Virus record (IMG/VR): IMGVR_UViG_3300035390_000014
Coordinates: 1 to 64,000 of that record
Source: a virus
Reading direction: 5' to 3' (one strand)
Length of the DNA stretch: 64,000 bases
Notes under the pieces: model-generated
Databases searched by the model: none
The model's input: only the letters and a program-made list of their open reading frames with translations
Told to the model about the DNA's origin: nothing
Program-made: the position numbers and the translations under genes
Shown: positions 128-26,531 of the stretch, piece after piece
Position numbering within the stretch: position 1 is the first letter of the stretch
Layout: each line of letters starts with the position of its first letter

Positions 128-3100
128 TTATCTTTTCAAACCTAATGCTGTAAGGTTTGCATTTAATAATTTAACAGACTCAGGAACAATTGAATCGACA
201 TGATCATCTTCTTCAAGTCTTCCTAAATCTGATTCCAATTGTTCTCTAATAAACTTGTTCTTAAGATCAATACAATCAGATTTAGTTGTTAGAAATTCTC
301 TTAAATTAAATTTGGCATTATGTCCAATCAATGCTGCTGTTTCCATTTCCCCACATCTTTGACCACCTTTATTTTTACGACCAGCTAAAGGTTGCAAAGT
401 CTTTCTTGCATATGATCCAATACCTCTTGCCGCTAACCTTGTCTCAGATATATGAACCATTTTAAAGAAATATCCATATCCACATGTTACTGAATTAACT
501 GGATAACTATTTGACTGAGGATCAAACACATGGTATGTAAATTGTGTATTTGTATAAGCTAATGCTTGTTTGGTCTTTTCCATATTAACTGATTCAAATG
601 GAGGTTGAATTATTGACATATTGTCTATCCATTCATCATCAATAATCAAGGGCATTTGCTCTTCAAACTGCTGATGATACCACCCAATTTCAGTATTATC
701 AATTATTTTTATATAACCAAGAACATAATCTTTCACAAGTATCTGAATTTGATCTTGAGATAATTCATGATTTATTACTGATTGATCTTCACCATGAATT
801 ATATGTTTCATTTGCTTCTTCAAATCAAATAAAGACATACCCATATGATATTCAAACAACTGACCTACATTCATTCGACCAATGGTTCCCAAAGGATTGA
901 CAATAATATCAGCATGTCTCCCATCAGGTAACATTGGCATTTTTTCATGAGGAATAATAGTAGAGATTACACCTTTGTTACCATGTCTGTTCCCAACTTT
1001 ATCCCCAATCTGAATTGGTCTAAAGAATATACCAAACATTTCAACTCTAATTCCTAATACCTCTTCACCTTTCTTTTTAAATTTTCCTGTATTACTGAAT
1101 AGATCAAGATTATTTGCCTTGATAAAAGGTTTAACCTGATCCTTCTCCAGATTTTCTTCGATGATAACTTTAATTTTTAATTCTTCATCCTGCTGTGAGT
1201 TGATAACACTTTCAACCCAATCATTATACTGAGGTATATCCACACACCATTGATTAACATATAGATTAACTTCTGTTATAATAACATCCTGTTTTGATAG
1301 AAGTTTTCTTTCTTCTTTAAATATATCAAAGAAGTCCATTTGATTATTCGGAAATTCTTTTAAAATTGCGTATGGAGTACCTTTAGCAATTCTATCTCCG
1401 ATTTTTGGTAAAGGTTTATAATCAGCATTTTTATCCAAAGATAATAACACTTTATTCATAGGGATATCAAAAGACATATCCTCAAAATGAACTGATGTAA
1501 ACAATCCTTCCTTCTGGACGCGGTCTGAGATGATAATTCCATCCTCATAATTGTATCCATAATAAACCATTACACAAGTTAAAAGGTTTTTGCCAATGTT
1601 TATACTTCCATCTTTACAAAAATTACTTTCTGCTAAGATTTCACCAGCTTTAAATTTATCACCTTGCTTCACATATATATTAAATACATCAAGATTTGAT
1701 ATATAAATTTTTCTATATGTGATATTAAATATTTCAATTGTCTTATCATCATATAAAGCTATTATATAATTACTATCAAGATGTATAACCTTTCCTGATT
1801 TTTTAGCAATTTTTACAAACTGAGTATACTTTGTATATAAATTTTCACAACCTGATTTAATCATAGGTTTGTCAAAATTTTGTAACATAATTGCCTGTCT
1901 CATTTGAGACGACGCCATTTGCAACCTAGTCTGATCATCATGTTCAAGGAATGGAACCATAGATACAGGAATTGAAATTGGTTGCTTTTCAAGAAATTCA
2001 TCAGTAAATCTTAAATTTTCATCCAGTGGAACATTTGGAATAAGATTTTGAAGAACTCCGCAGTTATCTCTATCTGGTGTATCAACAGGACATATTCTAC
2101 CAAACATACTTGGCATAATATCTCTTAAATGCTCAGGAACATTCTGTCTATTAAACCCACCAGGTCCAACCAAGCTTGTTCTGCTTAACTTAGTTGCTTC
2201 ATCAATAGGATTAATAGCAAAATCAAACTGAACAATATCTGATACATTACATTCGGATAATATTTGAGTTGAATTAACATTGAATTTTGGTTGTCTTGCT
2301 GTTCTATTGGACATACACATATCAAATACTGCTTTAGATATCTTTGCTAATACTACATATTCAAGACATCTAATTCTTTTATTCTTCAGATCAGTATCAT
2401 CAAGATCACCACCATTCAATGTATAAACAATTTCATCAATAATATTATCGGTTTGAAAGAATATTGTTGAAATAGGATCAACTTTCAATATTAAGTCAAG
2501 GGAATATATAATATCTTCACCCTTAACTCTAGCATTAAATTTTGAATAATTTCTTCCTATTTCTTTTATAATATCATCTTGAGTTAACCCTCTTGATTCA
2601 TCATAAAAACATTTTAAATCATAAATCAACTTTTCATACAAAGTTGATTCCGGTGTCATAATTGGCGCATCTACCATATCAGATAAACCAAATTTTTCAT
2701 TCATAACCTCAATCCCATAATAACCAAACATAATTAGAAATAATGGAACTTTTCTTCCTAAGATGCTAATATAAACATAAGGAGATTCTTTCTGAGGAAA
2801 TATCATAAGAGTTGCAACATTAGTTCTAATCTTGATACTCTTTCCTCTTGTAACAACAGGGATATCAAACAACTGAAATAGAGGTATTTTCTTCCTTCCA
2901 TTTATAACTATGTAATTGTCATCTACTAATGCCGGAATTTGCATAGATAAATCTATCTTTGCAGTTCCTTTTTGAAACCTGATTATCAAATTCTTTTTTA
3001 AGGTTTTACTTATCTCTCCGTTAGAAAATCTGGGTTCTTTTAATCTAAATTCCATCAATTCAAACCCTAATTCTTCTGCTGGGATCAGTATCTTTCTTAC

Positions 3101-3190
3101 GTTCTCCAAAAGAGCTGCATACTCTTGCTGTCGAATATTAAAGATATGATTATTTCCGCCAACTTTATATATCGGATTTTCTATAGCCAA
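128..3190 (-). CDS. Multisubunit RNA polymerase beta subunit (first phage RNAP)
   Basis: Phage homologue of bacterial RpoB, 1020 aa against about 1340 in E. coli. Conserved blocks occur in the expected order: RICPVDTPDRDNCGVL (bacterial RICPIETPEGPNIG) near residue 365, GYNYEDGIIISDR near 550, GDKVGNRHGNKGVIS near 730, VNPLGTIGRMNVGQ near 770, and GRKNKGGQRCGEMET near 940. The lysines and histidine of the active-site block NRHGNKG are kept. The start is TTG, placed by an AAAGGAG site nine bases upstream. It follows the beta-prime gene by 15 bp, so both should be co-transcribed. A second beta homologue is at 36870-40961, so this phage encodes two polymerases. Its distance from structural genes suggests a non-virion, middle/late-transcribing enzyme like the phiKZ nvRNAP (inference). 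Confidence 0.95.
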   Translation of the reverse strand: MAIENPIYKVGGNNHIFNIRQQEYAALLENVRKILIPAEELGFELMEFRLKEPRFSNGEISKTLKKNLIIRFQKGTAKIDLSMQIPALVDDNYIVINGRKKIPLFQLFDIPVVTRGKSIKIRTNVATLMIFPQKESPYVYISILGRKVPLFLIMFGYYGIEVMNEKFGLSDMVDAPIMTPESTLYEKLIYDLKCFYDESRGLTQDDIIKEIGRNYSKFNARVKGEDIIYSLDLILKVDPISTIFFQTDNIIDEIVYTLNGGDLDDTDLKNKRIRCLEYVVLAKISKAVFDMCMSNRTARQPKFNVNSTQILSECNVSDIVQFDFAINPIDEATKLSRTSLVGPGGFNRQNVPEHLRDIMPSMFGRICPVDTPDRDNCGVLQNLIPNVPLDENLRFTDEFLEKQPISIPVSMVPFLEHDDQTRLQMASSQMRQAIMLQNFDKPMIKSGCENLYTKYTQFVKIAKKSGKVIHLDSNYIIALYDDKTIEIFNITYRKIYISNLDVFNIYVKQGDKFKAGEILAESNFCKDGSINIGKNLLTCVMVYYGYNYEDGIIISDRVQKEGLFTSVHFEDMSFDIPMNKVLLSLDKNADYKPLPKIGDRIAKGTPYAILKEFPNNQMDFFDIFKEERKLLSKQDVIITEVNLYVNQWCVDIPQYNDWVESVINSQQDEELKIKVIIEENLEKDQVKPFIKANNLDLFSNTGKFKKKGEEVLGIRVEMFGIFFRPIQIGDKVGNRHGNKGVISTIIPHEKMPMLPDGRHADIIVNPLGTIGRMNVGQLFEYHMGMSLFDLKKQMKHIIHGEDQSVINHELSQDQIQILVKDYVLGYIKIIDNTEIGWYHQQFEEQMPLIIDDEWIDNMSIIQPPFESVNMEKTKQALAYTNTQFTYHVFDPQSNSYPVNSVTCGYGYFFKMVHISETRLAARGIGSYARKTLQPLAGRKNKGGQRCGEMETAALIGHNAKFNLREFLTTKSDCIDLKNKFIREQLESDLGRLEEDDHVDSIVPESVKLLNANLTALGLKR

Positions 3191-3205
3191 AATGTTGTTC
3201 TCCTT

Positions 3206-5920
3206 TTAAATTTCTTCGCCGCATAAGATTTTATCCATAACTCCATGATATAAACCAGAATCAAGGACACCACGTATGATATGTTTCTTTGGATTTGAAA
3301 ATGCTAAACCCATCAACCAGCTTTCATTTGAGGGCACAGTTTGAACAGATAGGTATTTAGGAACTACATTTTCTCGACCCTCAACCAATCTCCATTTTTT
3401 ATTATTATACCACATCAATTGAGATACAACACATTCAAAATGTACATGATGAATTGTTCTACTAAGGTTATAACAAGTGTACAACTTGGCAACCAATTCT
3501 TCTGGTTTAGTTCCTTTAGGAAATTTATGCAAAAGTTTAGACACTGTTGATAAATCAGCAACAATATCATGCTGTTTCATATCCTCACCTTCACTTTCCT
3601 TATCCAAAACAGCAACACCAGATGTATGAAATGTACGTAAAACCAACTGAGTATTACATTCTCCAAGACTCTGAGCTGCAATAACTCCAACAAACTCAGA
3701 ATCCAACATCTCATACAATTCCCCATAACATTTGGTGCATATTTTAGGGTTCTTACAATATATTGGACTTCTAACTTCAACAATCTTTCCTACATAACCA
3801 AGATAGTTATACTCGGTCATTTTAATCAGAGTACCATCTTCTTTAAACCATTTTCCAATTAACATCTTTGCTTTCTTTTCATCATCAACAAATACAGAAA
3901 GTAAATCAGTTGTTCCACAATCCTCAGTGTCTTTATCAATTTGAAGATTAGCACAAGTGAATATTAATTTTCTTGAAAGGTATCCAGATGTTCCTGTGTT
4001 CAAAGCAACATCAAGTAACCCCTTTCTAGAACCATTGGTAGAATCAAAGAACTCTCTTGGTGTTAACCCATTGATAAAACTATGTTTAATGGGTCTTTCA
4101 ATAATCTCACCTCTAAAGTTTGAAATAAAACCTCTGGTTAAAACTATCTGTCTTACCTGATCCCAACTCCCTCTAGCACCAGATTCTATCATGTATGCGT
4201 ATTTAAAATGATCTCTAAGATACTGAGTTGTTTCTTCCTTAGATACCATATCAAGTTGTTCTCTAATATCATCGCCTTCATACAATGAATCTCTTTTCTC
4301 AAGTGACCCTTCAATGAAACAATCATCTAGTGCAAGAGTTGCCCCAAATAATGTTGAATATTTAAATCCAAGAAATTTAATTTTATCGAGAACAGCAGCA
4401 GTAATTTCATTTGAATATCTATTATTAACATCAGTTAAATAGTAATTAATTTCTTTACCACCAACTTCTTCATCAATTATATGATAGTCAGATGGAAAAC
4501 AATCATTCAATAACTTTCTATCAGCTTTAATTGTTGTCCCTTTATATTCAACATCATACTGTAGATCAGGAAATATTTTATGAGTAACAGCATAGATACC
4601 CAATATAACATCCTGACTTGGTGTAGTTGACAAACTTCCATTAGAAGGATTGGTAAGATTTCTTATAACCAACAATCTATCCAACACTTCTTGCTTTGCT
4701 TCTTCACTGATTGGAACATAAACAGCCATCTGATCCCCATCAAAATCTGCATTAAATGGAGGGCATGACAATGGATGTAGTTTAATAACTTTTTCTAAAG
4801 TAACTTTGGTTTTATATCCCAAAAGACTTAATCTATGTAATGAAGGCTGTCTGTTTAAAATACATACCTCATTTACAGCAATCTCTTCACATATATTAAA
4901 AAGAATTGGGTTGCCAACTTCAATACAATTATCAATAAAATCAATTGAATCATTAATTTTCTTAAATCTTCCAATCTCAATAATTTTCTTTGCGATTTTC
5001 AATTTAAATAATTCAAGAAACATCAAATAAGGTAATGCACAATATTCCATTTCTAATGTAGGATCAGGAACAATTACTGCTCTACCAGAAAAATCAATTC
5101 GTTTACCTAAAATATTACCACGAATCAATCCTTCTTTTTTAGACATTTTCTCAAGAATATAAGCATACAACTCTTGAATATCTTTTTGAAGCTGTCTGTA
5201 ATAATTGTAATATAAATTTCTATCAACTCTTATATCACATGGAGTTTCTCTCATTGCTTCTTTTTTAGTAAGTATTTGAGTATAGTATCTATTAATTTTA
5301 TCCGAAGATACTTGTCCTTTCTTACTAACTTTCTTTGATGCAGGCCTTAAATCAGGAGGTAATACAATAACCTGACCGATTATTAATTGATCTATATTTT
5401 CTTTAACAACTTCCCAAGAAGTATTTCCTATACCCAAACCATAATCAGCTAAATCTTCAATTAATATTTTAATTGCTTCAGTACCGACTAAAGCATTTCT
5501 ATCAATATTTTCAGGGTCTTGTTTTTCAACCCTCCATGATTCTTCTTCATCATCATATACTAAAATACTGTTTTCATCTTTCATCAATTGATCCAATGCA
5601 GTCTTTACTTGACGACCACCAAGATCAATTACAAGATCATAAAACAATGGGTTCACAACCGGGATTGGTAGAATAATTTTAGCAAATCTTTTTCTTCTCT
5701 CATTGCTATTAACAACATCAACTCCACAATCTGCACAGGTTCCACCAGAACCTGATATACCCCAATAGGTTCCACATTGACAAGTATAATTCTTTTCTGG
5801 ACCAAATATCTGCTCAGAAAATAATCCTGTCGCATGAGGCAACTTCTTGTCGTAGATCTTAGTTGTTGTGATTTCTTTTAAGTCTTCACAAAACTCGTCA
5901 AAATTTAATAATGTAGGCAT
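3206..5920 (-). CDS. Multisubunit RNA polymerase beta-prime subunit, single chain (first phage RNAP)
   Basis: RpoC homologue of 904 aa (E. coli about 1407). It keeps an N-terminal zinc ribbon (C47, C49, C62, C65 in CQCGTYWGISGSGGTCADCG), GKRIDFSGRAVIVPDP, the switch region RQPSLHRLSLLGY, and the Mg-binding loop FNADFDGDQMAVY near residue 392 with all three aspartates. It also has GARGSWDQVRQ and the trigger-loop/bridge-helix block LGECNTQLVLRTFHTSG near 763. After the trigger loop a shortened C-terminus still resembles the beta-prime C-terminal segment, so the chain is unsplit. That differs from the second polymerase and from phiKZ. The long bacterial insertion between trigger loop and C-terminus is missing. 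Its ATG has an AAAGGAT site. Confidence 0.95.
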   Translation of the reverse strand: MPTLLNFDEFCEDLKEITTTKIYDKKLPHATGLFSEQIFGPEKNYTCQCGTYWGISGSGGTCADCGVDVVNSNERRKRFAKIILPIPVVNPLFYDLVIDLGGRQVKTALDQLMKDENSILVYDDEEESWRVEKQDPENIDRNALVGTEAIKILIEDLADYGLGIGNTSWEVVKENIDQLIIGQVIVLPPDLRPASKKVSKKGQVSSDKINRYYTQILTKKEAMRETPCDIRVDRNLYYNYYRQLQKDIQELYAYILEKMSKKEGLIRGNILGKRIDFSGRAVIVPDPTLEMEYCALPYLMFLELFKLKIAKKIIEIGRFKKINDSIDFIDNCIEVGNPILFNICEEIAVNEVCILNRQPSLHRLSLLGYKTKVTLEKVIKLHPLSCPPFNADFDGDQMAVYVPISEEAKQEVLDRLLVIRNLTNPSNGSLSTTPSQDVILGIYAVTHKIFPDLQYDVEYKGTTIKADRKLLNDCFPSDYHIIDEEVGGKEINYYLTDVNNRYSNEITAAVLDKIKFLGFKYSTLFGATLALDDCFIEGSLEKRDSLYEGDDIREQLDMVSKEETTQYLRDHFKYAYMIESGARGSWDQVRQIVLTRGFISNFRGEIIERPIKHSFINGLTPREFFDSTNGSRKGLLDVALNTGTSGYLSRKLIFTCANLQIDKDTEDCGTTDLLSVFVDDEKKAKMLIGKWFKEDGTLIKMTEYNYLGYVGKIVEVRSPIYCKNPKICTKCYGELYEMLDSEFVGVIAAQSLGECNTQLVLRTFHTSGVAVLDKESEGEDMKQHDIVADLSTVSKLLHKFPKGTKPEELVAKLYTCYNLSRTIHHVHFECVVSQLMWYNNKKWRLVEGRENVVPKYLSVQTVPSNESWLMGLAFSNPKKHIIRGVLDSGLYHGVMDKILCGEEI

Positions 5921-5931
5921 TATTAATCCTT

Positions 5932-6291
5932 TTATTTAAAGGTTTTAATTACATACTCAGATATTGCAACTAAATGTGTCTTGATCTCCTTTGAAATTGA
6001 TAGTTTGAAATTAGGCATTAGCGCCAACATTGTTTGCCCAACTAGGTCTTTAAGGTCTTCTCCTTTAATAGATTCTTTAACTTCTTGGTTAAGTTCATGT
6101 ATATCATTTTCAAAAGTTTCTGTATTATCTTCAACATTAACTAGTCTATCATTTATGTCTTTAACATTTTTTTCTGTTTTAAGACACATATTTTTATAAG
6201 ATTCTATAGTTGGAAGAATTCTCATAATCTCCAATCTCTTATCAATCAATCCAATAAGTTCAATCTCCATCTCTTTACTAAATATAGCCAT
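5932..6291 (-). CDS. Coiled-coil hypothetical protein
   Basis: 119 aa, not recognised. The middle (residues about 30-85) is rich in E/K/N/D with heptad-like leucine, isoleucine and valine spacing, suggesting a coiled coil; the ends look helical. The start codon overlaps the stop of the E2-like gene upstream (TAATG) and the gene ends 11 bp before the polymerase beta-prime start, so it may be translated with either. It could be an accessory subunit of the polymerase or of the Ubl cassette; nothing in the sequence decides. Confidence 0.7.
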   Translation of the reverse strand: MAIFSKEMEIELIGLIDKRLEIMRILPTIESYKNMCLKTEKNVKDINDRLVNVEDNTETFENDIHELNQEVKESIKGEDLKDLVGQTMLALMPNFKLSISKEIKTHLVAISEYVIKTFK

Positions 6292-6761
6292 TATATAATC
6301 TCCCTTGGTAATGGTGGCGATGTTTTTAAATGTTCACGTAATGGATAATGATGTGGATCATCCAATCCCCATTGAGATATCATATATTTTATATACTTAT
6401 TTGAATAAAATTTATAATTTGGCACACTGGAAGGATCATTCTGGTATTTTTCCATTAACTTATTGCTTATCAATTTTGTTCCTATAATACTATTTCCAGT
6501 ACAAAACCTAGAAAATTTAGGTGGGTTATTTATATCTATATTTTTTTCTCCTTCCCACCCCCAAGCATTTGGATGAAAACTATCTGCAATTATTATATCT
6601 TCTATAATATTATCCAATAAATTATTTACTATAACATAATACCTTTTTACATTATAGCTTGGATGATAATAAGTTATATCATAAGAGGTATGTTTAAATA
6701 TAATATTTTTTGGTATCACACCACCTTTTGATACATAATATTTTTTACCTTCTATCATCAC
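6291..6761 (-). CDS. E2-like (UBC-fold) candidate protein
   Basis: 156 aa. A beta-rich first half (YYVSKGG, ITYYHPSYNVKRYYVIVNN) leads into H63-P64-N65 and then C87 in RFCTGN. An HPN followed by a 'C-x-G' cysteine is the arrangement of UBC-fold E2 enzymes (HPN ... active-site Cys), and FCTGN resembles the CLGS/CLGN motif of bacterial E2-like proteins. The spacing between HPN and Cys is longer than in eukaryotic E2s. The gene lies 8 bp downstream of an E1-like gene inside a cassette with Ubl and JAB genes, which is the main support. Function is inferred from motif and context only; H63 and C87 would be the key residues. Confidence 0.5.
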   Translation of the reverse strand: MMIEGKKYYVSKGGVIPKNIIFKHTSYDITYYHPSYNVKRYYVIVNNLLDNIIEDIIIADSFHPNAWGWEGEKNIDINNPPKFSRFCTGNSIIGTKLISNKLMEKYQNDPSSVPNYKFYSNKYIKYMISQWGLDDPHHYPLREHLKTSPPLPREII

Positions 6762-6769
6762 CCACTCCT

Positions 6770-7657
6770 TTATGCTGCTCCAGTATCAGGCAGTAATTCT
6801 AAATAAACTTGACTTGGATTTTCATCATTAACTTTAATTGTATAATATTCATTTAAAGGAACAATAGTACATACAATTTCAGATAATATTTTTACAGCAT
6901 TATTATAATGATCAATTTCATTTTTCTTTATGCATTGAATATTTCCTCCTACACATCCTTCTTGTCCAACAATAACTATCAAATCCTTAGTTTTATTAAG
7001 TTTAGTAATTTGAGGCAATGTTTCATGAAGATTTCTAATCTTATTATCACCTTTACAATATTCAAGAACCATATCAGGTTTATTATCAAATAATTCAATA
7101 GCTTTATTGGCTTGTTTCTTAACCAAATCAATTTCAGCTTGAAAAACTAATTGTCTTTCCATAAAATCAGTTAATATTTTTTTATCAATATATTGAGAAG
7201 CAATTGAAGATGCTATGGTTAATTCTGATAATGATAAATTATGTGAATATCTACCTGTTTGTTTAAATACAACTTTATGATATTTTTCACAGTCAATGAC
7301 TAATGTTTTATATGAAATATAAAATCTAACATCAATTTCACCACCACGACTGCAAATTTCATCTCTACAATCAACAATCAATTCACTTTCAGGAAGCCAA
7401 ATCTTTCCTTCTATATATTCAATAGGAAAGATTTTAGTTTTAATTAATGAGTTATTGTTATATATAATACGACTCATTGCCTCAACTTTAAACTTACCGA
7501 TATCATCTCTCTTATAAATAGAATTGCCAATATTTTTTGTTTCTATTATATCAGGGTCAATTAATATTAAATTTTCAATTCCTTTCATTTTAGAAATGTT
7601 ATCAGCAAAGAATCCTCCGAGTGATCCCAAACCAATTATTACGATGCTTTTATACAT
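6770..7657 (-). CDS. ThiF/E1-like adenylating enzyme (second E1-like protein)
   Basis: 295 aa. It begins with a Rossmann ATP-binding loop IIGLGSLGG (residues 8-15), followed by IDPDIIETKNIGNSIY (D34, D36, N42, N45) and K55 in GKFKVEA, the usual ThiF/MoeB/E1 adenylation arrangement. DCRDE at 96-100 matches the strand after which E1s place 'D.D' contacts. No clear CxxC zinc pairs and no obvious catalytic-Cys loop like the one in the other E1-like protein; cysteines are at 97, 102 and 123, with more in the C-terminal third. It sits between the E2-like gene and a helical protein. It may activate a Ubl C-terminus by adenylation without an E1 thioester (inference). The C-terminus ends LLPDTGAA. Confidence 0.8.
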   Translation of the reverse strand: MYKSIVIIGLGSLGGFFADNISKMKGIENLILIDPDIIETKNIGNSIYKRDDIGKFKVEAMSRIIYNNNSLIKTKIFPIEYIEGKIWLPESELIVDCRDEICSRGGEIDVRFYISYKTLVIDCEKYHKVVFKQTGRYSHNLSLSELTIASSIASQYIDKKILTDFMERQLVFQAEIDLVKKQANKAIELFDNKPDMVLEYCKGDNKIRNLHETLPQITKLNKTKDLIVIVGQEGCVGGNIQCIKKNEIDHYNNAVKILSEIVCTIVPLNEYYTIKVNDENPSQVYLELLPDTGAA

Positions 7658-7711
7658 TTCATTTTTAATCCTTTATGTTATAATAGTTTGTTTCTTAAAT
7701 CAATAATTACT

Positions 7712-8131
7712 TTATTCATTTATATATTCATTTATTTTTTGTAATGTATAATGCAACGAATGAATCTGTTTCATTATAGTTTGAGCTTTACCATAAATAG
7801 TTGGATCAGTTTCTTTGATAAGATTATGCATCAAATGAGAAAGTTTATGAGGTTTTAATTTATTATAAAGTTTATTCATCCCTGCAGTTAATTCACATGC
7901 AACAGTCTCATATTCAATAACATTTGGCGTATTTTGAATAAGTCTATGTGTCAAGAATAATAAATCATTAATATTATCCTCTTCCAAATGTGTAGAAGCT
8001 AAATATAAATCATTTTCATGTTTGTCTTGTAATTCTTTCAAATCAATTTTTATTAATTTAACTGGATTGCCCTCAATTTCAGCGATATAATAATCTTTTT
8101 CATCTTTTAATATTTTAATTTTCTGTTCCAT
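7712..8131 (-). CDS. Helical hypothetical protein in the Ubl cassette
   Basis: 139 aa, not recognised. A short beta-like N-terminus (KILKDEKDYYIAEIEGNPVKLIKI) is followed by a predicted all-helical body with one cysteine (YETVACELTAG). It has an AAAAGGAG site and follows the Ubl gene across a hairpin. Its place between the Ubl and the second E1/E2 pair suggests a part in the cassette, but no motif supports a function. Confidence 0.7.
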   Translation of the reverse strand: MEQKIKILKDEKDYYIAEIEGNPVKLIKIDLKELQDKHENDLYLASTHLEEDNINDLLFLTHRLIQNTPNVIEYETVACELTAGMNKLYNKLKPHKLSHLMHNLIKETDPTIYGKAQTIMKQIHSLHYTLQKINEYINE

Positions 8132-8144
8132 TATATCTCCTTTT

Positions 8145-8180
8145 AAATAAGGGGTAAGAATTAATCCCTACCCCTTATTT
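8145..8180 (-). terminator. Hairpin after the Ubl gene (attenuator/terminator or processing site)
   Basis: A perfect 12-bp inverted repeat, AAATAAGGGGTA (8145-8156) against its complement at 8169-8180, with a 12-base loop. It fills most of the 65-bp gap between the Ubl stop and the next start. In the minus-strand RNA the 3' arm ends in UUAUUU rather than a long U-run, so termination may be partial; this would make the Ubl transcript more abundant than the downstream E1/E2 genes (inference). Confidence 0.6.
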
Positions 8181-8196
8181 TAATCAAATACTAATA

Positions 8197-8748
8197 CTAT
8201 CCTTTGGAACCAGCAGGTTTGATGAACTCAAGAACATCGCCTTCTTTAAGAACATAAGAAGAATCGATCTTGTTTCCAGAAACCTGACCCTCAGCAAGTC
8301 TATCAATATTCAGAACTTCCTTGAGGAATTCCTGAACTGCTCCAACTGTTTTACCCTGAACAGGAAAGTCAGCAGAGTTGGCACCACAAGAAACCTGAAT
8401 GGTTGTTGTGGTTTTGTCGCCTTTCTTTGCAGAAGGTTTAGTTAGAACACTTGACATTTTAAACTGAGCTGCAGTTACAGGTGCAGGAGGTTTAGAAGCC
8501 ACAGTTTGAGCAAGTTTCTGAGTATGGCTCATCCCAGGTTTAGTTGCAACAGGTTTAGTTGCAACAGGTTTAGACACAGATGCAGGACCATCAGCAGTAG
8601 CGGCAGAAGCAGCAAGAATTGCTTTAATTGTAATGTCTTTGGTCTTTTTGGAAAAACCAACAATTTTACGTGCTCTAACGATAGTTCTCAGTTCAGCAAC
8701 GGTCATGTCATTCAGAGTGTCATAAGTTTCGATTGTAGAATTAGTCAT
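8197..8748 (-). CDS. Ubiquitin-like protein with N-terminal SAP-like domain
   Basis: 183 aa in three parts. Residues about 13-48 (MTVAELRTIVRARKIVGFSK...) look like a SAP/LEM-type helix-extended-helix that often binds nucleic acid. Residues about 49-112 are a low-complexity A/K/P/T linker with a repeated VATKP. Residues about 113-183 form a small beta-grasp-like domain (TTTTIQVSCGANSADFPVQG, then a helix AVQEFLKEVL, then YVLKEGDVLEFIKP) ending in G-S-K-G. The fold pattern and C-terminal glycine match ubiquitin-like/ThiS/MoaD proteins, and the ending resembles PRTRC-type Ubl 'protein C' (from memory, not searched). It sits directly downstream of an E1 and a JAB gene. The last glycine could be used directly, or a terminal residue could be trimmed by the JAB peptidase. 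Confidence 0.75.
   Translation of the reverse strand: MTNSTIETYDTLNDMTVAELRTIVRARKIVGFSKKTKDITIKAILAASAATADGPASVSKPVATKPVATKPGMSHTQKLAQTVASKPPAPVTAAQFKMSSVLTKPSAKKGDKTTTTIQVSCGANSADFPVQGKTVGAVQEFLKEVLNIDRLAEGQVSGNKIDSSYVLKEGDVLEFIKPAGSKG
8536..8565. repeat. Two tandem 15-bp units in the Ubl linker
   Basis: AGGTTTAGTTGCAAC occurs twice back to back (8536-8550 and 8551-8565). It encodes the repeated VATKP of the linker between the SAP-like and Ubl domains. Such a repeat can expand or contract and change linker length without affecting the frame. Confidence 0.85.
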
Positions 8749-8780
8749 TTTTAGTTCTCCTAATGTTTAATAAATTTAAT

Positions 8781-9458
8781 TTAGTTTTTAGAATTTCTTG
8801 TTTTCGCTAATGTAGCCATTGAAGTGATATCGAAATATACTTCGCCAAACCTTGTCACATCTTTTCCTTGATGAATTGCATAGAACATCCAACACATTAT
8901 TGTTGCAACAGTTAAATTTGTGAACAATAGCTGTGGCGCTGATTCAGATAGTTCTTCGCAACTCATATCTTCCGGAGATCGATCTTCTGGATATTCAATC
9001 TCTGGATGATATTCATCTAATGACGCTGTTACATTCTTCCCACCCTCCCTTTTATAAATCTGAGCGTTACCATCAGTGTATTCATTACCACCACTGATAA
9101 CAGTTATATCATTAAGTGTTGAACAATAATCAGAAATAACTTTTCTGGAAACATGATTGTCAACACATATAAAAACGATGGAATTTTCTGATATTAATGA
9201 TTTTATATTATCTTCATTAACAAATTCATTATAATCTTTAAAACCAACCTTTGAAAATTTGTGTTTAAGTTCTGTGCATTTAACAGTAGCCTTATCACCT
9301 AATCTTGCAAAAGTTTGTCTTTCACTATTTCGTGCTTCATAAAAATCTCCATCAACCAAACTAACAGATGCATTAATGTCTGAGTAGTTTAAATATCTGG
9401 ACAAATTATCACACAAAATAGATCCAACTCCACCTAACCCAATAATAACAATATTCAC
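8781..9458 (-). CDS. ThiF/E1-like Ubl-activating enzyme (PRTRC ThiF type)
   Basis: 225 aa. Nucleotide-binding loop IIGLGGVGS (residues 5-13), then VDGDFYEARNSERQTF (35-50) containing the acidic, Asn and Arg residues typical of E1/ThiF adenylation sites, and FICVDNHVSR near 97-105. Near the C-terminus MSCEELSESAPQLLFTN (C167) matches the position of the conserved 'SC..' loop of PRTRC-type ThiF proteins, making C167 a candidate E1 thioester cysteine. The start is GTG with a TAGGAG site. The gene lies between the JAB and Ubl genes, 12 bp and 32 bp away, the usual order for an E1 acting on the adjacent Ubl. Confidence 0.85.
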   Translation of the reverse strand: MNIVIIGLGGVGSILCDNLSRYLNYSDINASVSLVDGDFYEARNSERQTFARLGDKATVKCTELKHKFSKVGFKDYNEFVNEDNIKSLISENSIVFICVDNHVSRKVISDYCSTLNDITVISGGNEYTDGNAQIYKREGGKNVTASLDEYHPEIEYPEDRSPEDMSCEELSESAPQLLFTNLTVATIMCWMFYAIHQGKDVTRFGEVYFDITSMATLAKTRNSKN

Positions 9459-9470
9459 AATAACAATCTC

Positions 9471-10520
9471 CTATTTCTTTGTTAGGTCGTCTTGATCCGG
9501 ATTTTCATCAACATGAAATGGATCACTTTCAGTTACTTCAAAACCCATCAGCTTTGCACTTTCATCATCCAATCCATCAATCAAATCTTTCATCATCAAA
9601 TCTGATTTATGATGTCTATATGGACATTGTGAACATGGATTCCATTCATCATCACTAACTTCATAAGAATCAAATAAACTTCTTTGTTGAGGAGTGCCAG
9701 GCATGAATGATGAATTTCTTTTATAAAATTCACTAATTGACCCACCAAATCCATATGATCCATGATTATATGTTGGTGTTGTATAAATAGGTCTATCAAT
9801 CTGTTTCATCCATTTCTTTGGAAACTCAAAATCCTTTTCAGGAGCAGTACAATCATAACCAAGTTTCTTCTCAGCTGGTACAGGTGTTTTTACACCTTTC
9901 AACCAGGTATATCTCTGGTATTGTTGAGTAACTTCATATTCAACTAATTGAACACCATCAATATAGTCCTCTGGGTTTACCATAAATCTTTCACCACCTG
10001 ACATAATAGAACAAGATATATCAAAATATTCATCAGCCATTTTACCAAGAGTGATATGCAATCCATCCCAATTTTCTTCGTCAGCATGATCTGTACCAGA
10101 ATGAAATGCTGACATATTAGCATGACTATGAATGGTTCCAATTCTTATATAATCCTTATAAGTATCTTCTCCATTGATATAATTAACACTTGCTCCAGTT
10201 ACACCTTGTTTTGGCACATCAATTCTATATCTTTTCCTTTTCTTATTATAATGCAGAATTACATTCGCTTCTGCCTTATACACTTTATATACTTCTCTAA
10301 ACAAAGAAAGTATTTGAGCAAATTGTCTTATTGAAATTTTAGCTATGTTCAAAGTTGCATATGTAGAACATTCACCTAAAATAGAAATTGAATCCACCTT
10401 GTTGAGTGTATTAAAATCACCCATGGTCTTTTTCAGATATATTCCATCTTTTGCTACTACATAGAATATAGGTTCGTCTGGCATTTCAGTTTTTCCATCA
10501 TTCACCCATACTGGAAACAT
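9471..10520 (-). CDS. JAMM/JAB-family metallopeptidase (deubiquitinase-like)
   Basis: 349 aa. The complete JAMM zinc signature is present: H131-x-H133-x7-S141-x2-D144 in HSHANMSAFHSGTD, with an upstream glutamate candidate (E84 in YKAEANVIL). The N-terminal region (PIFYVVAKDGIYLKK) precedes the catalytic domain, as in the PRTRC JAB protein. The C-terminal third has a CSQCPYRHHKSDL element that may bind another metal. Expected role: hydrolysis of the isopeptide or peptide bond after a Ubl C-terminus, to mature the Ubl or to remove it from targets. It abuts the E2-like gene (no gap) and is followed by E1 and Ubl genes. Confidence 0.88.
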   Translation of the reverse strand: MFPVWVNDGKTEMPDEPIFYVVAKDGIYLKKTMGDFNTLNKVDSISILGECSTYATLNIAKISIRQFAQILSLFREVYKVYKAEANVILHYNKKRKRYRIDVPKQGVTGASVNYINGEDTYKDYIRIGTIHSHANMSAFHSGTDHADEENWDGLHITLGKMADEYFDISCSIMSGGERFMVNPEDYIDGVQLVEYEVTQQYQRYTWLKGVKTPVPAEKKLGYDCTAPEKDFEFPKKWMKQIDRPIYTTPTYNHGSYGFGGSISEFYKRNSSFMPGTPQQRSLFDSYEVSDDEWNPCSQCPYRHHKSDLMMKDLIDGLDDESAKLMGFEVTESDPFHVDENPDQDDLTKK

Positions 10521-13088
10521 TTAAAAATCCTCCTTAAATTGTTCACTTCTAAGAGATACTTTTGCATTAGTATTTAATATATAACCGCCTAACATATTCG
10601 GAAATCCTGTTTTGTTTTCTGCCATTCTAGGATTAGCAACAGAAATCCTTGGCATTGTAATACCATGTCTTACTACATATTTCAAATCATTTTTTGTAAT
10701 ACTAGTCCCCCATTCTAAATTTGCCCAGCTTGTGACGTAATGATATTCAAATGAATATCTAGTTCCATTTTTTCTTGCTAGAAATTTAATAGAATTTGAT
10801 CTACCATCTGTAAAATGATCACCATGTTGCCATTTAATTTTTTCTAAATCAAATTCTACTATTTCAGATTTCTTCCAGTCATCTGATTTAAATGGTATTC
10901 TTTTAAATTTAGATATAGTATCTTGATTCATCCACAATGTGCATAAATTAGAACATATTGCCAATGGATATTTAGTTGAACCATCATTAATAAAAGCTAT
11001 AATGGAATTAGTATCCTTCTTGGGAAAATTAATAATACCAGTAGTTGTTGCTTTGATTTTATCCCCAGACTTCCAATCACCACACTGTGATTCAACTTTT
11101 CTAACACACCCAATATTAACATTATCATTACCAAAATTAATATATGGAATTCTAAATTGAACTTTTTTATTTAATGAGGTACTGTTAATATACAATTTAT
11201 TATCTTTTTCATCATACTCAAAACTATCAATAGATGATACAAGTAACATATCCTCTGGGTTACTCCAATTGGCATACACTATTGGATCGCCAACTTTAAA
11301 ATCAATATCGCATTGAATACGAGGTATATATAGCCTTGTTCTATTTGCTAATAAAATTTTCTTTAAATACTCTTTTATATCATCAATACCACAATAATAT
11401 CTAACAGCTTGATTACTATCTATAAGAATTCCTTTGTTTCTCATAATATGAAATTTAGGTTTACTCTCTGATCCATTGCTATTGACTAATAGTTTATCAA
11501 AATGACATATAGTATCAGGTTCTATTAAATTATTTGTATCTATAAAATCATAATCATTATGACCATTTTCATAATCACTATGATTTAAATTTATACTATT
11601 TCCATTTTTTCCAACAGGAGGTAAAAACTTTATAATAATATGTCCAGATCCTGATATTGAAATATTTTTATATTTCATTTTTCTAATTTTATAACAATTA
11701 TTATATCCTTCATTGGAAGTAATGATATAATAATCTTTTTCTTTATCAAGAGATTCACCATTGATTTTAATATTACTAAAATTCATTATAGAAAAATCAA
11801 TATTTTCAATAAGATAATGATCATTTCCAATTAATGCCTCAATTTTTCCATCCTGTGCTACTCTAATTGATTTAATCCTTTTATTGACTATACATCCCCC
11901 AGATTTAAAAGTTATAATATCATCAGGTTTAATAACTTTACCATTAACTTCAACTTCCTCCAATTCAGTCTTAGTATATAAATCCCCAAGACCTTTTTCA
12001 AAATCTTGATATGGTACTGAAATTAATTCTCCTTTACTATTTTCTAACTCAACTTCTAAATATGATTCTTCATGATCATCAGTTGTGATAGAATATAAAT
12101 ATAAAATCTCATTGTTAAAAGAAATTTCATCACCAACCTGAATTGTCATTCCTTTTATTGCTAATGAATATGAGGTATTTCTAACATTTGATTTTTTAGT
12201 TACAGTTGACGAAGTTGTACCTCTAACAATATTTTGAAGTAATTCATATGATGAACCAGAATTTTTTGAATCATTTGAATATTCTCTCACAGAACTGATT
12301 ACTCTACCAATGTTTCTATGGAATTTTAACCAACTTACATTATAAATAAACATTGGATCAAGTTTACTAAAATACATCCATGAGAGATAATCTTGAACTT
12401 CATAAGCATTAGAGTTTTCATATGCTTTAATATTATCAGTATAATCTTTATTATAACGATTCAACCAAAATGTTTCAATAATATTTTCAGTAGTTTCTAA
12501 TACAGTTGAATAATTTATAATACTCCCAAGACATATTGTTTGACTATCTGGAATATTATAAAGAGGTGCCTTAAAAAGATAATCTGACAAACTTGTAATT
12601 GGATGCAATCTGAAAAATGGTTGCATTTGAAGCATTTGATTTTGTTTATTTAACACTATTATAAAAACAACATATGGAAAAGATAACTGAAATGAATATG
12701 GGCGACCTGAATTTTCATCCAAATAATTTTCATACCCATACTCTTTTAATTTTCCAGTTATTCTCAATTTTTCTATTGTTGCTTCCATCCCAATATCAGC
12801 TTTAATAGTTCTAATTCTCGGAGGTTCTTCAATAACTATAATTTTTCTACCATTCCCAAAAGTTTCAAAATACTTACAACCTACAGGTAAAATTTCATTG
12901 TTATTATTAAAATTTGTTTTCAAACCATTATAGAAATCTTTTGTTCTTATAGTTCTATTTCTACATATTGGTTTAAAAGGAACCTCTTTTGTTTCGCCGT
13001 GCACATAATTTTTGTCTAATTGGTAAATATCATCTTTAGTTCCAATTATACTAGTATATTGATTACCTATAACAATTTCTCTATTCAC
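10521..13088 (-). CDS. Large protein with N-terminal E2-like (PRTRC protein B-type) domain
   Basis: 855 aa. Residues about 80-200 carry the pattern of the bacterial E2-like PRTRC protein B: IVIEEPPRIRTI near 85-95, a hydrophobic strand FPYVVFIIVL at 137-146, H162-P163, then LFKAPLYNIPDSQTICLGS (171-189) with a candidate active-site C186. The remaining 600 or so residues are beta-rich with several GD-containing short segments (VGDEISFNN, PDDIITFKSGG, KVGDPIVYAN, SGDKIKATT) that look like repeated small barrels. No known domain was recognised there. The start is GTG after AAAAGGAG. It is the first long gene of the cassette and abuts the JAB gene. PRTRC protein B is normally much shorter, so the long extension is unusual. 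Confidence 0.65.
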   Translation of the reverse strand: MNREIVIGNQYTSIIGTKDDIYQLDKNYVHGETKEVPFKPICRNRTIRTKDFYNGLKTNFNNNNEILPVGCKYFETFGNGRKIIVIEEPPRIRTIKADIGMEATIEKLRITGKLKEYGYENYLDENSGRPYSFQLSFPYVVFIIVLNKQNQMLQMQPFFRLHPITSLSDYLFKAPLYNIPDSQTICLGSIINYSTVLETTENIIETFWLNRYNKDYTDNIKAYENSNAYEVQDYLSWMYFSKLDPMFIYNVSWLKFHRNIGRVISSVREYSNDSKNSGSSYELLQNIVRGTTSSTVTKKSNVRNTSYSLAIKGMTIQVGDEISFNNEILYLYSITTDDHEESYLEVELENSKGELISVPYQDFEKGLGDLYTKTELEEVEVNGKVIKPDDIITFKSGGCIVNKRIKSIRVAQDGKIEALIGNDHYLIENIDFSIMNFSNIKINGESLDKEKDYYIITSNEGYNNCYKIRKMKYKNISISGSGHIIIKFLPPVGKNGNSINLNHSDYENGHNDYDFIDTNNLIEPDTICHFDKLLVNSNGSESKPKFHIMRNKGILIDSNQAVRYYCGIDDIKEYLKKILLANRTRLYIPRIQCDIDFKVGDPIVYANWSNPEDMLLVSSIDSFEYDEKDNKLYINSTSLNKKVQFRIPYINFGNDNVNIGCVRKVESQCGDWKSGDKIKATTTGIINFPKKDTNSIIAFINDGSTKYPLAICSNLCTLWMNQDTISKFKRIPFKSDDWKKSEIVEFDLEKIKWQHGDHFTDGRSNSIKFLARKNGTRYSFEYHYVTSWANLEWGTSITKNDLKYVVRHGITMPRISVANPRMAENKTGFPNMLGGYILNTNAKVSLRSEQFKEDF

Positions 13089-13090
13089 AA

Positions 13091-13450
13091 TTATTCTCCT
13101 TTTAAGAATTGCATCCTTTCAACAAACTCTTTTAATATTTTCTTAGGATTATCATGTTTAACAACCCAAACCTTAGCTCTTTTAGGAGTTGATGTATTAA
13201 TATTCGCTAAACAATTCCAATGTGAAATAATATATTTATTTTGAGCTTCTCGTTCAATACAAATATAATTTTCATATTTTTTATTATTAGTGACAATAGG
13301 AAGAGACAAGAATATATTTGACCCAACAGGTCCTTCATAATCAATTGTATCGCCTAATTCTTCTTTTTCTATATGATCACAAAGAATCCTTAATTTTTCA
13401 TCTAATTCACTCTTCTTCCATGTTTCAAGAAGTTCATCAATAATTGTCAT
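13091..13450 (-). CDS. Hypothetical protein upstream of the Ubl cassette
   Basis: 119 aa, not recognised. A helical N-terminus (IIDELLETWKKSELDEKLRIL) is followed by a beta-rich part (NYICIEREAQNKYIISHWNC) and a helical C-terminus. It lies 2 bp before the E2-like gene start with an AGGAG site, so it is very likely in the same operon. Confidence 0.7.
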   Translation of the reverse strand: MTIIDELLETWKKSELDEKLRILCDHIEKEELGDTIDYEGPVGSNIFLSLPIVTNNKKYENYICIEREAQNKYIISHWNCLANINTSTPKRAKVWVVKHDNPKKILKEFVERMQFLKGE

Positions 13451-13461
13451 TTAATCTCCTT

Positions 13462-13773
13462 TTATTTTTTAATTCTAAATCTTACTCGATTAGGAGTTTC
13501 AACCCATTCACTTCTTTGAAATGGTACAGTTCTCCAATCTTTTTTATCCAAATCAAAAACATGAACCATACCCTGTTTCTGCACCAAAGAAAAGATTTTA
13601 CCCATATTTACATCTTTTGGTCTTTTTCCCTCAGGTATTTTTGAAAAATCCAGAGTGCATCTCATTGTTCTTTCAGTTCCATCAAGTTTTCTAAACCTAA
13701 TAGTAACTTCTTCCTCTGCTTTTATCTTTTGATAAAACTCTATTGCGTTTTGTAATACATTGTCATCAGCCAT
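13462..13773 (-). CDS. Small phage SH3/Sm-like protein (DUF2693/WYL_2-like)
   Basis: 103 aa. After an N-terminal helix it shows VTIRFRKLDGTERTMRCTLD, then HVFDLDKKDWRTVPFQR and a terminal strand. This 'F.K.DGt.R.mrCTl ... v.D.d...WR.f' pattern is the one seen in short DUF2693 (WYL_2, Sm-like SH3 beta-barrel) phage proteins. The role is unknown. It precedes the Ubl cassette in the same direction with an AAGGAG site. Confidence 0.7.
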   Translation of the reverse strand: MADDNVLQNAIEFYQKIKAEEEVTIRFRKLDGTERTMRCTLDFSKIPEGKRPKDVNMGKIFSLVQKQGMVHVFDLDKKDWRTVPFQRSEWVETPNRVRFRIKK

Positions 13774-13979: not shown

Positions 13980-14561
13980 TTATCCCCAACATGTAATGCC
14001 AAACATTCTTCTATTTCTTTCTTTTATATTAGAAATAAATACATCTTTGTCTTTATCATGAAATGTATGTTTGTGCAGATACGTATGCTCAGTTGATAAC
14101 ATTAATCCTAAATTTTCTTTTCGATCATCCATATCATTCATATTAATGTGATGAACACACCATATTAAATTCCGCAACTTTGTAATATTGTATAGAAATT
14201 CTTGTTCCTCTTTAAATAAGATTGGATTTTGATTCTTATCAATTGTGCCTAAAATATCTATAAAAGGTGTTAATGGAAATTTAAAATCAAATTGTGAATA
14301 ATAAGAAAAGAAAAATGCATGATGTTTACCAATATTGCAAGACTTTTCTATATTAAATAATTTTTCAATTGTTGAAGTTATTCCTGTTCTTGATTTACGA
14401 CCTTTTGTTACAGCACTATTATAAATTATTGGACATTTATCACATTGTCCACCACTCTCACGAACATTTCTATAATCGCACATCATACAACCACCATCTT
14501 TTATAGAATCATGTTCTGTTAATAATTTCCATAATCCAGGAAAATCAATACTATTTGTCAT
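13980..14561 (-). CDS. HNH-type endonuclease-like protein
   Basis: 193 aa. Two CxxC pairs occur near the N-terminus (CMMC at residues 25-28 and CDKC) and the C-terminal third has WCVHHINMNDMDDRKENLGL followed by TEHTYLHKH. The 'HH-x3-N..D..eNL....eH..lH' spacing is that of HNH nucleases such as those freestanding in phages. The gene follows the radical SAM gene with an 11-bp overlap, so they are translated together. It may be a homing nuclease or a host-DNA nuclease. Confidence 0.7.
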   Translation of the reverse strand: MTNSIDFPGLWKLLTEHDSIKDGGCMMCDYRNVRESGGQCDKCPIIYNSAVTKGRKSRTGITSTIEKLFNIEKSCNIGKHHAFFFSYYSQFDFKFPLTPFIDILGTIDKNQNPILFKEEQEFLYNITKLRNLIWCVHHINMNDMDDRKENLGLMLSTEHTYLHKHTFHDKDKDVFISNIKERNRRMFGITCWG

Positions 14562-15594
14562 TATCTCGTCTCTCCTTATGAATTAAATTATCAACAACAT
14601 CTCCATCTTCTGATATCATTCGACTCATAAGCATACAGGTCCAACAACATCCTTTGCAATAATTCTTTTTATCAATTCTAATCATTTCTTTATATGTAGG
14701 ATGTAATCCTTCACCAAGAAAACAATCATATGCCTTCATAACTGGAGTCATAATTCCACGAATACGAAGGCAAAGTCTTACACTACCATCAGCATCAATT
14801 GTCATATTATGAACATTATCTTCTAACCCACAATCAAGATTTGCTGGTAATATATCCCAAATTTTCATCAACAATGTATCAGACATATGAACATCAAGCT
14901 TATCATCAATAATCTTTTGAAATATATCTTTAACTGTCTTATTCTTTTTAACTAAAAGATTCTCATCCTCAACATTTGAAAAGTCATAATAATTATTTTT
15001 TTTAATATCAACTGTTGTGATATCACTGTTTATACCCATGTCTGTTAACATTTTAACGAGGTTATACAAATGATATATATTGGTATTATCAACTGTGATT
15101 TCCGCTACTAAATCATTGATTTTACCCTTATACTTTTGCAACCTTTCAATACCAGCTACACATTTTTTATATCTGTCATCATCAGTTAATGATTTATCAT
15201 CCAATATCAATGGATCAACTGATGATGTTAGACCTTGAATATACTCAGTATCTTCCATCAACTTATCAATCATTGGTTGAACTGCATCTGAATTATTTGT
15301 AATAATTGTATAATGAATATCTTCTTTATTACAATAATTTATAATATCAGCAAGATCCTTTCTAAGCATTGGCTCGCCTCCATAAAAAAGCATAAAAGCA
15401 TCTGGATTATGTTTTTTAATTCTACCCAATGTTGCAATAACATATTCGGTTGACATTTCTTGTTTATGATAATGACTCATATTAGGATAACTTGATGGTT
15501 TCCCTTCATAGTCTTTCACAATAGCACAATAGGAACATTTCAAATTACACTGCCTTGTCAGTAACCATGAAATTATTTGTATCTTATTTTTCAT
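14551..15594 (-). CDS. Radical SAM enzyme with SPASM-like C-terminus
   Basis: 347 aa. The 4Fe-4S motif C16-x3-C20-x2-C23 lies in TRQCNLKCSYC, followed by FYGGEPMLRKD (the SAM-binding GGE). C-terminal cysteines in LDCGLEDN, VRLCLRIRG and YCKGCCWTCML resemble the auxiliary-cluster SPASM/twitch region used by peptide-modifying radical SAM enzymes. It is not QueE-like in length or C-terminus. The substrate is unknown. Genes on both sides are small zinc-ribbon and HNH proteins, and the Ubl cassette is about 1.5 kb downstream. Confidence 0.85.
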   Translation of the reverse strand: MKNKIQIISWLLTRQCNLKCSYCAIVKDYEGKPSSYPNMSHYHKQEMSTEYVIATLGRIKKHNPDAFMLFYGGEPMLRKDLADIINYCNKEDIHYTIITNNSDAVQPMIDKLMEDTEYIQGLTSSVDPLILDDKSLTDDDRYKKCVAGIERLQKYKGKINDLVAEITVDNTNIYHLYNLVKMLTDMGINSDITTVDIKKNNYYDFSNVEDENLLVKKNKTVKDIFQKIIDDKLDVHMSDTLLMKIWDILPANLDCGLEDNVHNMTIDADGSVRLCLRIRGIMTPVMKAYDCFLGEGLHPTYKEMIRIDKKNYCKGCCWTCMLMSRMISEDGDVVDNLIHKERRDNDK

Positions 15595-25775: not shown

Positions 25776-26281
25776 ATCCCACCCTTTATTAATTTATGAT
25801 TTTGGAGAAACCAAAAGAACATTTTTAATTGAAATCTATCCTGAATTTCAATTGTGTATTTCCATTTGTTATCTGCATATGGTTTATATACCCATTCAGG
25901 TTTAAAACCTTCACAGTATACTTGATGAACCTGAGATTCAATATTATGAACAATTCCAAGTTTTTGCCAATCCATTTTATGAATTTCATGAGTTTCCACA
26001 GAAACTTTCCAGTCATGAAAATTACCTCTAATGATAAAAGTGTCACCATTAGCTTTAATACAATACACTGGTAGTTCAATACTTTTTGATGTATGGGTAC
26101 TGATTACTGTAATATTTTCTCTAATTGTTTGATATTCTTTATAGGTATTTACATTCCTATTAACAAGAAATGATGGAATTTTATCCCGAATAAAACAAAC
26201 CTGATCAGACCAGGCACTTTTATATATCATTTCGTCTGCTGGGTGATTAGCAGTTATCCATTGTTGTAATGGCTCATTCAT
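25763..26281 (-). CDS. Hypothetical protein between the topoisomerase subunits
   Basis: 172 aa, not recognised. Tryptophan-rich and mixed alpha/beta, with FIIRGNFHDWKVSVET in the middle and a C-terminal helix (FQLKMFFWFLQNHKL). It has an AGGGGGA site and overlaps the genes on both sides by a few bases, so it is translated with the topoisomerase genes. Confidence 0.7.
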   Translation of the reverse strand: MNEPLQQWITANHPADEMIYKSAWSDQVCFIRDKIPSFLVNRNVNTYKEYQTIRENITVISTHTSKSIELPVYCIKANGDTFIIRGNFHDWKVSVETHEIHKMDWQKLGIVHNIESQVHQVYCEGFKPEWVYKPYADNKWKYTIEIQDRFQLKMFFWFLQNHKLIKGGIWID

Positions 26282-26531
26282 TTTTATTCCCCCTTGGACA
26301 CCACTTTGGGATTGGTGTTGTTTCTTCTCTAATTTTATATGGTCTGCATGATCGAGTTATACATTTATTAGGATTTTTGTCAGATAAGTATTTTGAATAT
26401 TCTTTTCTTTCATCATTCTGTTTTAATGTACAAACAACTGCACAATCATCATCACAAAACCAATCATTTGGATCAGGATCACTAATAACTTTATGATATT
26501 CACAATCAATACAACTTTTTATATCATCCAC
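26274..26531 (-). CDS. Cysteine-rich small protein
   Basis: 85 aa with eight cysteines, including CIDCEYH near the N-terminus, FCDDDCAVVC in the middle and RSCRPY...WCPRG near the C-terminus. Probably a small metal-binding protein. It has a GGAGGGG site inside the preceding topoisomerase gene. Function unknown. Confidence 0.65.
   Translation of the reverse strand: MDDIKSCIDCEYHKVISDPDPNDWFCDDDCAVVCTLKQNDERKEYSKYLSDKNPNKCITRSCRPYKIREETTPIPKWCPRGNKNE

Follow-up and report, generated by a model that had tools for sequence, protein, structure and literature searches.

Genes for a putative reversible ubiquitin-like conjugation pathway lie beside RNA polymerase genes in a phage lineage

In bacteria, the conjugation of ubiquitin-like proteins (Ubls) is known mainly from host defence, namely from cyclic-oligonucleotide-based antiphage signalling systems (CBASS) and the Bil/Bub systems, and from untested plasmid operons. 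In the Bil/Bub systems, the Ubl, the E1, the E2 and a JAMM-type peptidase share one operon. Here we analyse a gene block that combines the same four functions in a virus, found at 5,932-13,088 of the window, by which we mean the whole stretch of DNA under study, the first 64 kb of the 202,719 bp record IMGVR_UViG_3300035390_000014. Its sequences make it likely that the block encodes a functional phage pathway for reversible Ubl conjugation, the targets of which would most likely be the phage's own proteins, with the transcription or virion machinery as first candidates.

The closest described systems are the PRTRC or type 6d operons (Iyer 2006, PMC1779556), such as that of a Cupriavidus oxalaticus plasmid (L012), in which the four functions recur, with E2 (PRTRC B), JAB (PRTRC A) and E1 (PRTRC ThiF) in this order. 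The phage block shares with them homologous proteins of the E2 family D (E2-D), JAB and E1 families and a Ubl that ends in GxKG; the PRTRC C protein of the Cupriavidus plasmid ends in GAKG followed by five residues. It differs in that the phage Ubl gene comes after E1 and is fused to a Rho_N domain, the E2 carries a 600 aa extension and has its E2 histidine replaced, and the block includes a further E1-like and E2-like pair (E1'/E2') as well as an operon link to RNA polymerase. The window JAB scores 26.6 bits against TIGR03735 (PRTRC A, cut-off 101.8) and the window E1 35.5 bits against TIGR03736 (PRTRC ThiF, cut-off 144.75), both below the family thresholds. PRTRC F had no match in any of the phages and PRTRC ParB none in the window phage, whereas both matched strongly in the plasmid control. 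The initial annotation of this DNA had drawn a parallel with PRTRC, which stands for the four linked functions and fails for the family cut-offs, ParB and F. By these comparisons, the phage set is similar to PRTRC/type 6d but is not a PRTRC system.

Other known systems are more distant. Type II CBASS Cap2/Cap3 likewise has a bacterial E1-E2 with a JAB peptidase and conjugates through a C-terminal Gly or Ala, and the window E1' matches the Cap2 E1 in fold and sequence; the phage set, however, has no CD-NTase, encodes E1 and E2 as separate polypeptides and possesses a dedicated Ubl modifier. The Bil/Bub systems resemble the block as four-function operons, and E1' weakly matches Citrobacter BubCD, but their E1 and E2 belong to other families and they are bacterial defence operons rather than phage core genes. 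Lambda-type tail proteins I and K also bring together a phage ubiquitin-like domain and a JAB peptidase (PMC1779556), but they have no E1 or E2 and serve tail assembly only. We found no description of such a cassette in phages in the literature searched, the coverage of which excluded subscription papers and preprints, and a survey of 224 jumbo-phage genomes makes no mention of JAB, ThiF, PRTRC or Ubl. The earlier remark that no description was known of a complete set in a phage with two RNA polymerases holds for the literature searched, although equivalent sets are present, unnamed, in cultured phages (see below). The phage block is a new variety of prokaryotic Ubl conjugation. Its four core genes are as follows.

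10521..13088, minus strand: E2 (UBC-like, Pfam Prok-E2_D), 855 aa; profile match, C186 conservation, hhalign
9471..10520, minus strand: JAB/JAMM isopeptidase, PRTRC_A-like; complete metal site, PRTRC_A and Prok-JAB matches
8781..9458, minus strand: E1, ThiF/PRTRC ThiF-like, with SC-motif Cys167; ThiF and PRTRC_ThiF matches
8197..8748, minus strand: modifier with a Rho_N-like N-domain, a linker and a predicted beta-grasp-type Ubl, ending in GSKG; homologue scans

Relatives were gathered by searches with an E1 alignment (34 viral loci) and an RpoC alignment (80 viral loci), and near-identical contigs were collapsed to leave 66 non-redundant RpoC-bearing viral contigs. Residue conservation was counted over 55-62 homologues per protein (55 E2, 60 JAB, 60 E1, 62 Ubl and 60 E2'), and Pfam/NCBIfam scans were run on the window proteins and then on homologues singly (47 E2 and 48 Ubl). 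The JAB protein contains the active-site stretch IHSHANMSAFHSGTD, which is an HxHx7SxxD site, together with an upstream E84; its E84, H131, H133, S141 and D144 are 100% conserved, and it matches PRTRC_A (E=4e-6) and Prok-JAB (E=0.0018). The E1 matches ThiF (E=7e-19) and PRTRC_ThiF (E=6.5e-9) and has the features of the E1/ThiF superfamily, i.e. the nucleotide-binding GxGGxG, the Asp, the Arg finger and the catalytic Cys, with D36, R47, Q48, D100 and C167 of the SC motif all 100% conserved. For the E2, the window protein alone matches Prok-E2_D (PF14460) at E=0.0015 and 18.7 bits, under the 25-bit cut-off, while 36 of the 47 homologues match it, at best with E=1.2e-6. When the E2 domain was aligned profile to profile (hhalign) against PRTRC-B and further E2-D proteins of phages, the probability was 96.7% (E=4e-10); both C186 (in ICLGS) and N178 (in APLYN) are 100% conserved. 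On this profile match and active-site Cys, we count the protein in the prokaryotic E2 family D.

These results agree with most of what the initial annotation had read from the sequence. Every gene that it named was found at the coordinates it gave, on the minus strand; the full HxHx7SxxD site of the JAB peptidase, the SC-loop cysteine of the ThiF/E1 and the Ubl-type C-terminal domain ending in GSKG, with its invariant terminal G183, were all borne out. The E2-like domain with APLYN...ICLGS was likewise confirmed as family D with invariant C186 and N178, but the UBC part takes up only the first ~260 of the 855 residues, the rest being an extension of ~600 aa. Its central proposal, a phage-borne cassette for Ubl conjugation with four linked functions, is supported by the protein families, by the linkage in relatives and by hhalign, with activity predicted from sequence. 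The best PDB matches of the E2 extension, to NusG (E=0.21 and 0.68), are at chance level and support no assignment. Single-protein tblastn with the 855 aa E2 or with E1' found no match in cultured phages.

The modifier is a two-domain protein. Among its 48 scanned homologues, 40 match Rho_N (PF07498; best E=3.8e-13), and the best PDB profile matches of the Ubl protein are Rho N-domains, while SAP was matched by only 5 of the 48. The N-terminal domain, which had been called SAP-like, is therefore better described as Rho_N-like. Rho_N, a small helix-bundle family, is known from the part of Rho that binds nucleic acid. Of the DNA-binding role once hinted at, an association with nucleic acid may thus be retained without the SAP assignment. 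The C-terminal half matches TGS in 29 and ThiS in 25 of the 48 homologues (best E=3e-4); profile-profile comparison with Prok_Ub-type and other phage Ubls gave E=8e-5 with a probability of only 60%. The terminal G180, K182 and G183 are conserved at 93, 98 and 100%, respectively (62 sequences for the final Gly). Of 59 clear tails, 36 stop exactly at x-K-G, 17 add one Cys and six have other additions of 1-5 residues, as would be expected of a precursor cut by JAB to a common G-x-K-G end. One relative (L005) encodes two Rho_N-Ubl units in a single chain, each GRKG-terminated, and L140 has two tandem Ubls, each ending in GxKG. Small relatives of the Rho_N half, having neither the Ubl nor the KG tail, occur directly before the E2 gene at L009:6220-6546 and also in L024 and L032.

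The genes of the window lie nearly all on the minus strand, and the order of transcription of the block is WYL_2, q119, E2, JAB, E1, Ubl, p139, E1', E2', p119, RpoC and RpoB. The genes around the four core ones are these.

13462..13773, minus strand: WYL_2 (Sm-like) protein, head of the block; WYL_2 E=4e-10, 51 homologues
13091..13450, minus strand: q119, 119 aa, first small gene upstream of E2; 44 homologues, invariant residues
7712..8131, minus strand: p139, 139 aa; in a minority of relatives, 11 members
6770..7657, minus strand: E1', second E1-like protein; ThiF match, AlphaFold2 (AF2) model, Foldseek
6291..6761, minus strand: E2', candidate second E2, HPN...C; H63 and C87 invariant
5932..6291, minus strand: p119, 119 aa, weak coiled-coil-like matches; position conserved
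3206..5920, minus strand: phage RNA polymerase beta' (RpoC-like), first gene downstream of p119; homology
128..3190, minus strand: phage RNA polymerase beta (RpoB-like); homology

From E2 to RpoB, the intergenic distances are <=65 bp, with several neighbours overlapping or abutting, and the block at 5,932-13,088 is an operon-like row. A terminator scan found no minus-strand terminator-like sites between the cassette genes; the promoter scan was uninformative, as promoter-like sites exceeded shuffled sequence only modestly. In addition to the RNA polymerase at 128-5920, the window holds a second one, at 36870-40961 with 43423-45765, in agreement with the two RNA polymerases that had been noted for this phage.

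The block is retained across relatives. E2, JAB, E1, Ubl, E1' and E2' are all present in 54 of the 66 RpoC contigs, so the link between the cassette proteins, on which the initial annotation had staked its case, is intact in most relatives. In nine of the 12 incomplete contigs, the block is truncated by a nearby contig end; the other three are genuine exceptions as far as the record goes: L104 has E2-JAB-E1-Ubl and lacks E1'/E2', the L095 record has E1'/E2' and lacks E2/JAB/E1/Ubl, and L102 has neither half. Because L104 and L095 each carry one half, the two halves of the block are separable. The invariance of the catalytic residues given above contrasts with a median pairwise identity of 27% for E2, 37% for JAB, 54% for E1, 47% for Ubl, 36% for E1' and 25% for E2'. 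Co-inheritance was assessed as the Mantel correlation of each protein's distances with RpoC distances, with permutations. The correlations were 0.76 for E2, 0.53 for JAB, 0.66 for E1 and 0.69 for Ubl, against a permutation maximum of 0.30. Since their distances track those of RpoC, these four have descended together with the RNA polymerase genes. For E1' (0.39, permutation 0.38) and E2' (0.29, permutation 0.27), the correlation is barely above permutation. A 4.9 kb contig assigned to a Heimdallarchaeota metagenome-assembled genome (L133, DXJL01000071.1) contains a fragment of the phage block (E2, JAB and E1); it is most likely mis-binned and was not used as evidence of a host.

The pathway that we infer from these sequences would begin with a Rho_N-Ubl that ends at G-x-K-G or that the JAMM peptidase trims to that end. 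The E1 would adenylate the terminal glycine of the Ubl and form a thioester on Cys167, from which the Ubl would pass to Cys186 of the E2. Aided by its large extension, the E2 would then attach the Ubl to amino groups (lysines) of targets, from which the JAMM peptidase would also remove it. The transcription or virion machinery is the first place to look for such targets, given the Rho_N domain of the Ubl and the operon link and co-inheritance of the cassette with RpoC/RpoB; together, Rho_N and the operon linkage favour transcription or phage proteins over the role of an accessory defence gene. Here, genes for Ubl conjugation belong to the conserved core of a phage lineage as a module tied to transcription genes, and they provide a viral instance of the full gene set of tag, E1, E2 and deconjugase, polyubiquitin-like gene included.

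E1' and E2' are probably a second branch. E1' matches ThiF (E=3.7e-13), and its AF2 model (predicted local distance difference test, pLDDT, 94.4) matches PaaA, Cap2, MccB and ThiF by Foldseek at E<1e-7. Its last ~74 residues are modelled as beta-beta-alpha-beta-beta (block pLDDT 80-97) and end in T-G-A-A; among about 60 homologues, a single one lacks the terminal Ala. E1' may therefore carry its own modifier-like domain, and in the fullest form of this idea, E1'/E2' would be a self-contained second system in which E2' conjugates the C-terminal, beta-grasp-like modifier of E1' through its Ala end. cGAS is conjugated via a C-terminal Gly or Ala (PMC10097602), the L095 record has E1'/E2' without E1, E2, JAB and Ubl, and H63 and C87 of E2' are 100% conserved in 60 homologues (P64 and N65, 95%; consensus H-P-N-x-D-P-x-T-x-x-F-C-L-P). 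However, the C-terminal domain of E1' matched no Ubl and no Pfam family in sequence, Pfam and profile tests, so that only the order of strands and helix suggests a beta-grasp, and the obvious alternative is that the domain recruits an E2, as its counterpart in eukaryotic E1s does; E1' also lacks the usual Arg-finger RQ motif of E1s. E2' is a candidate second E2 only: the three best-scoring PDB profiles all belong to E2 enzymes but fall short of significance (E=0.25-0.94), one homologue matches UQ_con at 0.006, comparison with the E2-D profile gave nothing, and its model (pLDDT 91.8) had no Foldseek match at E<=0.001 in PDB or BFVD, leaving it without a recognised UBC fold. We regard a self-contained second system as possible without favouring it. 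More tentative still is the specific proposal that the phage regulates its transcription by the core Rho_N-Ubl modification, the genes of which share an operon with its RNA polymerase, and that a second branch with an E1-fused modifier exists alongside.

Searches with JAB reached cultured phages with cassettes of their own. Vibrio phage D69 has E2-D, JAB and E1 and a Ubl of three repeats, every one GTKG-ended, and Salmonella phage Arash, which encodes RNA polymerase, has a 66 aa Ubl ending in GTKG with E2-D, JAB and E1. This set recurs in four IMG relatives of Arash, among them one with a double Ubl. Bacillus phage KLEB27-3 has E2-D, JAB and E1 with a polyUbl (L007:2718-3425) of four repeats ending in GVKG, which matches Prok_Ub over four stretches (E=5e-27). 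Repeats 2 and 3 of this polyUbl share 100% of their residues but 81% of their bases; that the protein is kept unchanged despite a 19% DNA difference is a sign that each repeat is under selection, as the repeats of eukaryotic polyubiquitin genes are. These cassettes resemble that of the window in E2-D, JAB, E1, a GxKG-ended Ubl and a large phage genome; they differ in having no Rho_N, no long E2 extension and no E1'/E2', and in Ubl arrangement (free in Arash, three in tandem in D69, four in KLEB27-3). In GenBank, a PRTRC A label already stands on single genes of ME3 and KLEB27-3, and the E1 and E2 of Arash are called 'structural protein'. The gene annotated in Arash as gp251c (L002:102-320) is read in another frame than the 66 aa Ubl; the record thus carries no annotation for the Ubl itself (L002:107-307). 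With such unnamed equivalents in Arash, KLEB27-3 and D69, the role of PRTRC-type systems is directly testable.

A 527 kb virus (L045, record G003) has two adjacent E2-D genes, JAB, E1 and Ubl, with further E2-D-like matches elsewhere on the record, which suggests an expanded conjugation system. A 321 kb virus record (L110:863-4655) encodes a 584 aa protein with HPNVSSSGQVCMGD, a textbook E2-like active-site motif, that had no Pfam or PDB match; it is followed by an E1-like protein and an HxH-bearing JAB, a few genes ahead of RpoC.

Several observations weigh against a conjugation pathway directed at the transcription machinery. In the 527 kb virus, the Ubl has no Rho_N and the E2s have no extension, and the D69 and Arash cassettes do not adjoin RNA polymerase genes; the link to transcription is drawn from gene order and the Rho_N domain. 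The histidine downstream of the active-site Cys in PRTRC E2s, a conserved feature of E2 family D (Iyer 2006), is replaced by F/Y-N-x-D in the phages, and no E3 or substrate was identified.

The cassette might instead modify host proteins or defence components, for counter-defence or takeover, in the manner of injected or early-expressed effectors. Phages commonly attack host proteins, and the conjugation of cGAS by Cap2 is a case in which such chemistry counts in the conflict between phage and host (PMC10097602). The Arash particle proteome includes Gp246-Gp249 (PMC10585845); gene numbers seem shifted by one between the proteome table and GenBank, and E1, JAB and E2 are included either way, which would allow their delivery along with the genome. 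The Arash authors themselves remark that such enzymes may be carry-over from abundant expression (PMC10585845). An arms-race gene would, however, be expected to be patchy, whereas this block is fixed beside RNA polymerase genes with its four genes co-inherited, and its sequence points to no host target. We therefore consider host targets unlikely and phage proteins the better candidates.

A sulfur-carrier pathway of the ThiS/MoaD kind, in which E1 makes a Ubl thiocarboxylate after JAB trimming for nucleotide or RNA modification, would account for the ThiS and TGS matches of the Ubl homologues and the ThiF-like E1, and JAB and Ubl are also paired in sulfur-assimilation operons (PMC1779556). It would leave unexplained the E2-D with its invariant active-site Cys in every complete block, a protein with no known sulfur-transfer role; no rhodanese, ThiG or thiouridylase was seen in the block, and the tandem polyUbl forms of relatives fit conjugation. 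We judge this pathway improbable. Least probable of all is that E2, E1 and JAB are degenerate enzymes kept as virion- or RNA polymerase-associated scaffolds without conjugation activity, since every catalytic residue is kept in 55-60 divergent sequences, which is hard to explain without catalysis, even if peptides of the Arash homologues occur in particles, GenBank calls its E1 and E2 structural and the window E2 carries a 600 aa extension.

Some minor observations concern the surroundings of these loci. A terminase search (PF03237) had no match in the record of the window phage and had matches in relatives. On two plasmids with PRTRC-like genes, one from Paenibacillus and one from Alteromonas, these genes are followed a few kb downstream by a gene of the 3'-phosphoadenosine-5'-phosphosulfate (PAPS) reductase family (L010:9743-10576 and L013:12653-13666, respectively). 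Elsewhere in the window are a phage gyrase A/B pair (24450-28333), a protein with VWA and putative metallopeptidase (DUF2201) domains (28921-30288) and a 6-pyruvoyl-tetrahydropterin synthase-like protein (22478-23503), with which a 7-deazaguanine pathway is possible. Beyond the head of the block, at 14551-15594, lies a Radical-SAM-like protein (CNLKCSYC), which also adjoins the block in two relatives (L005 and L009).

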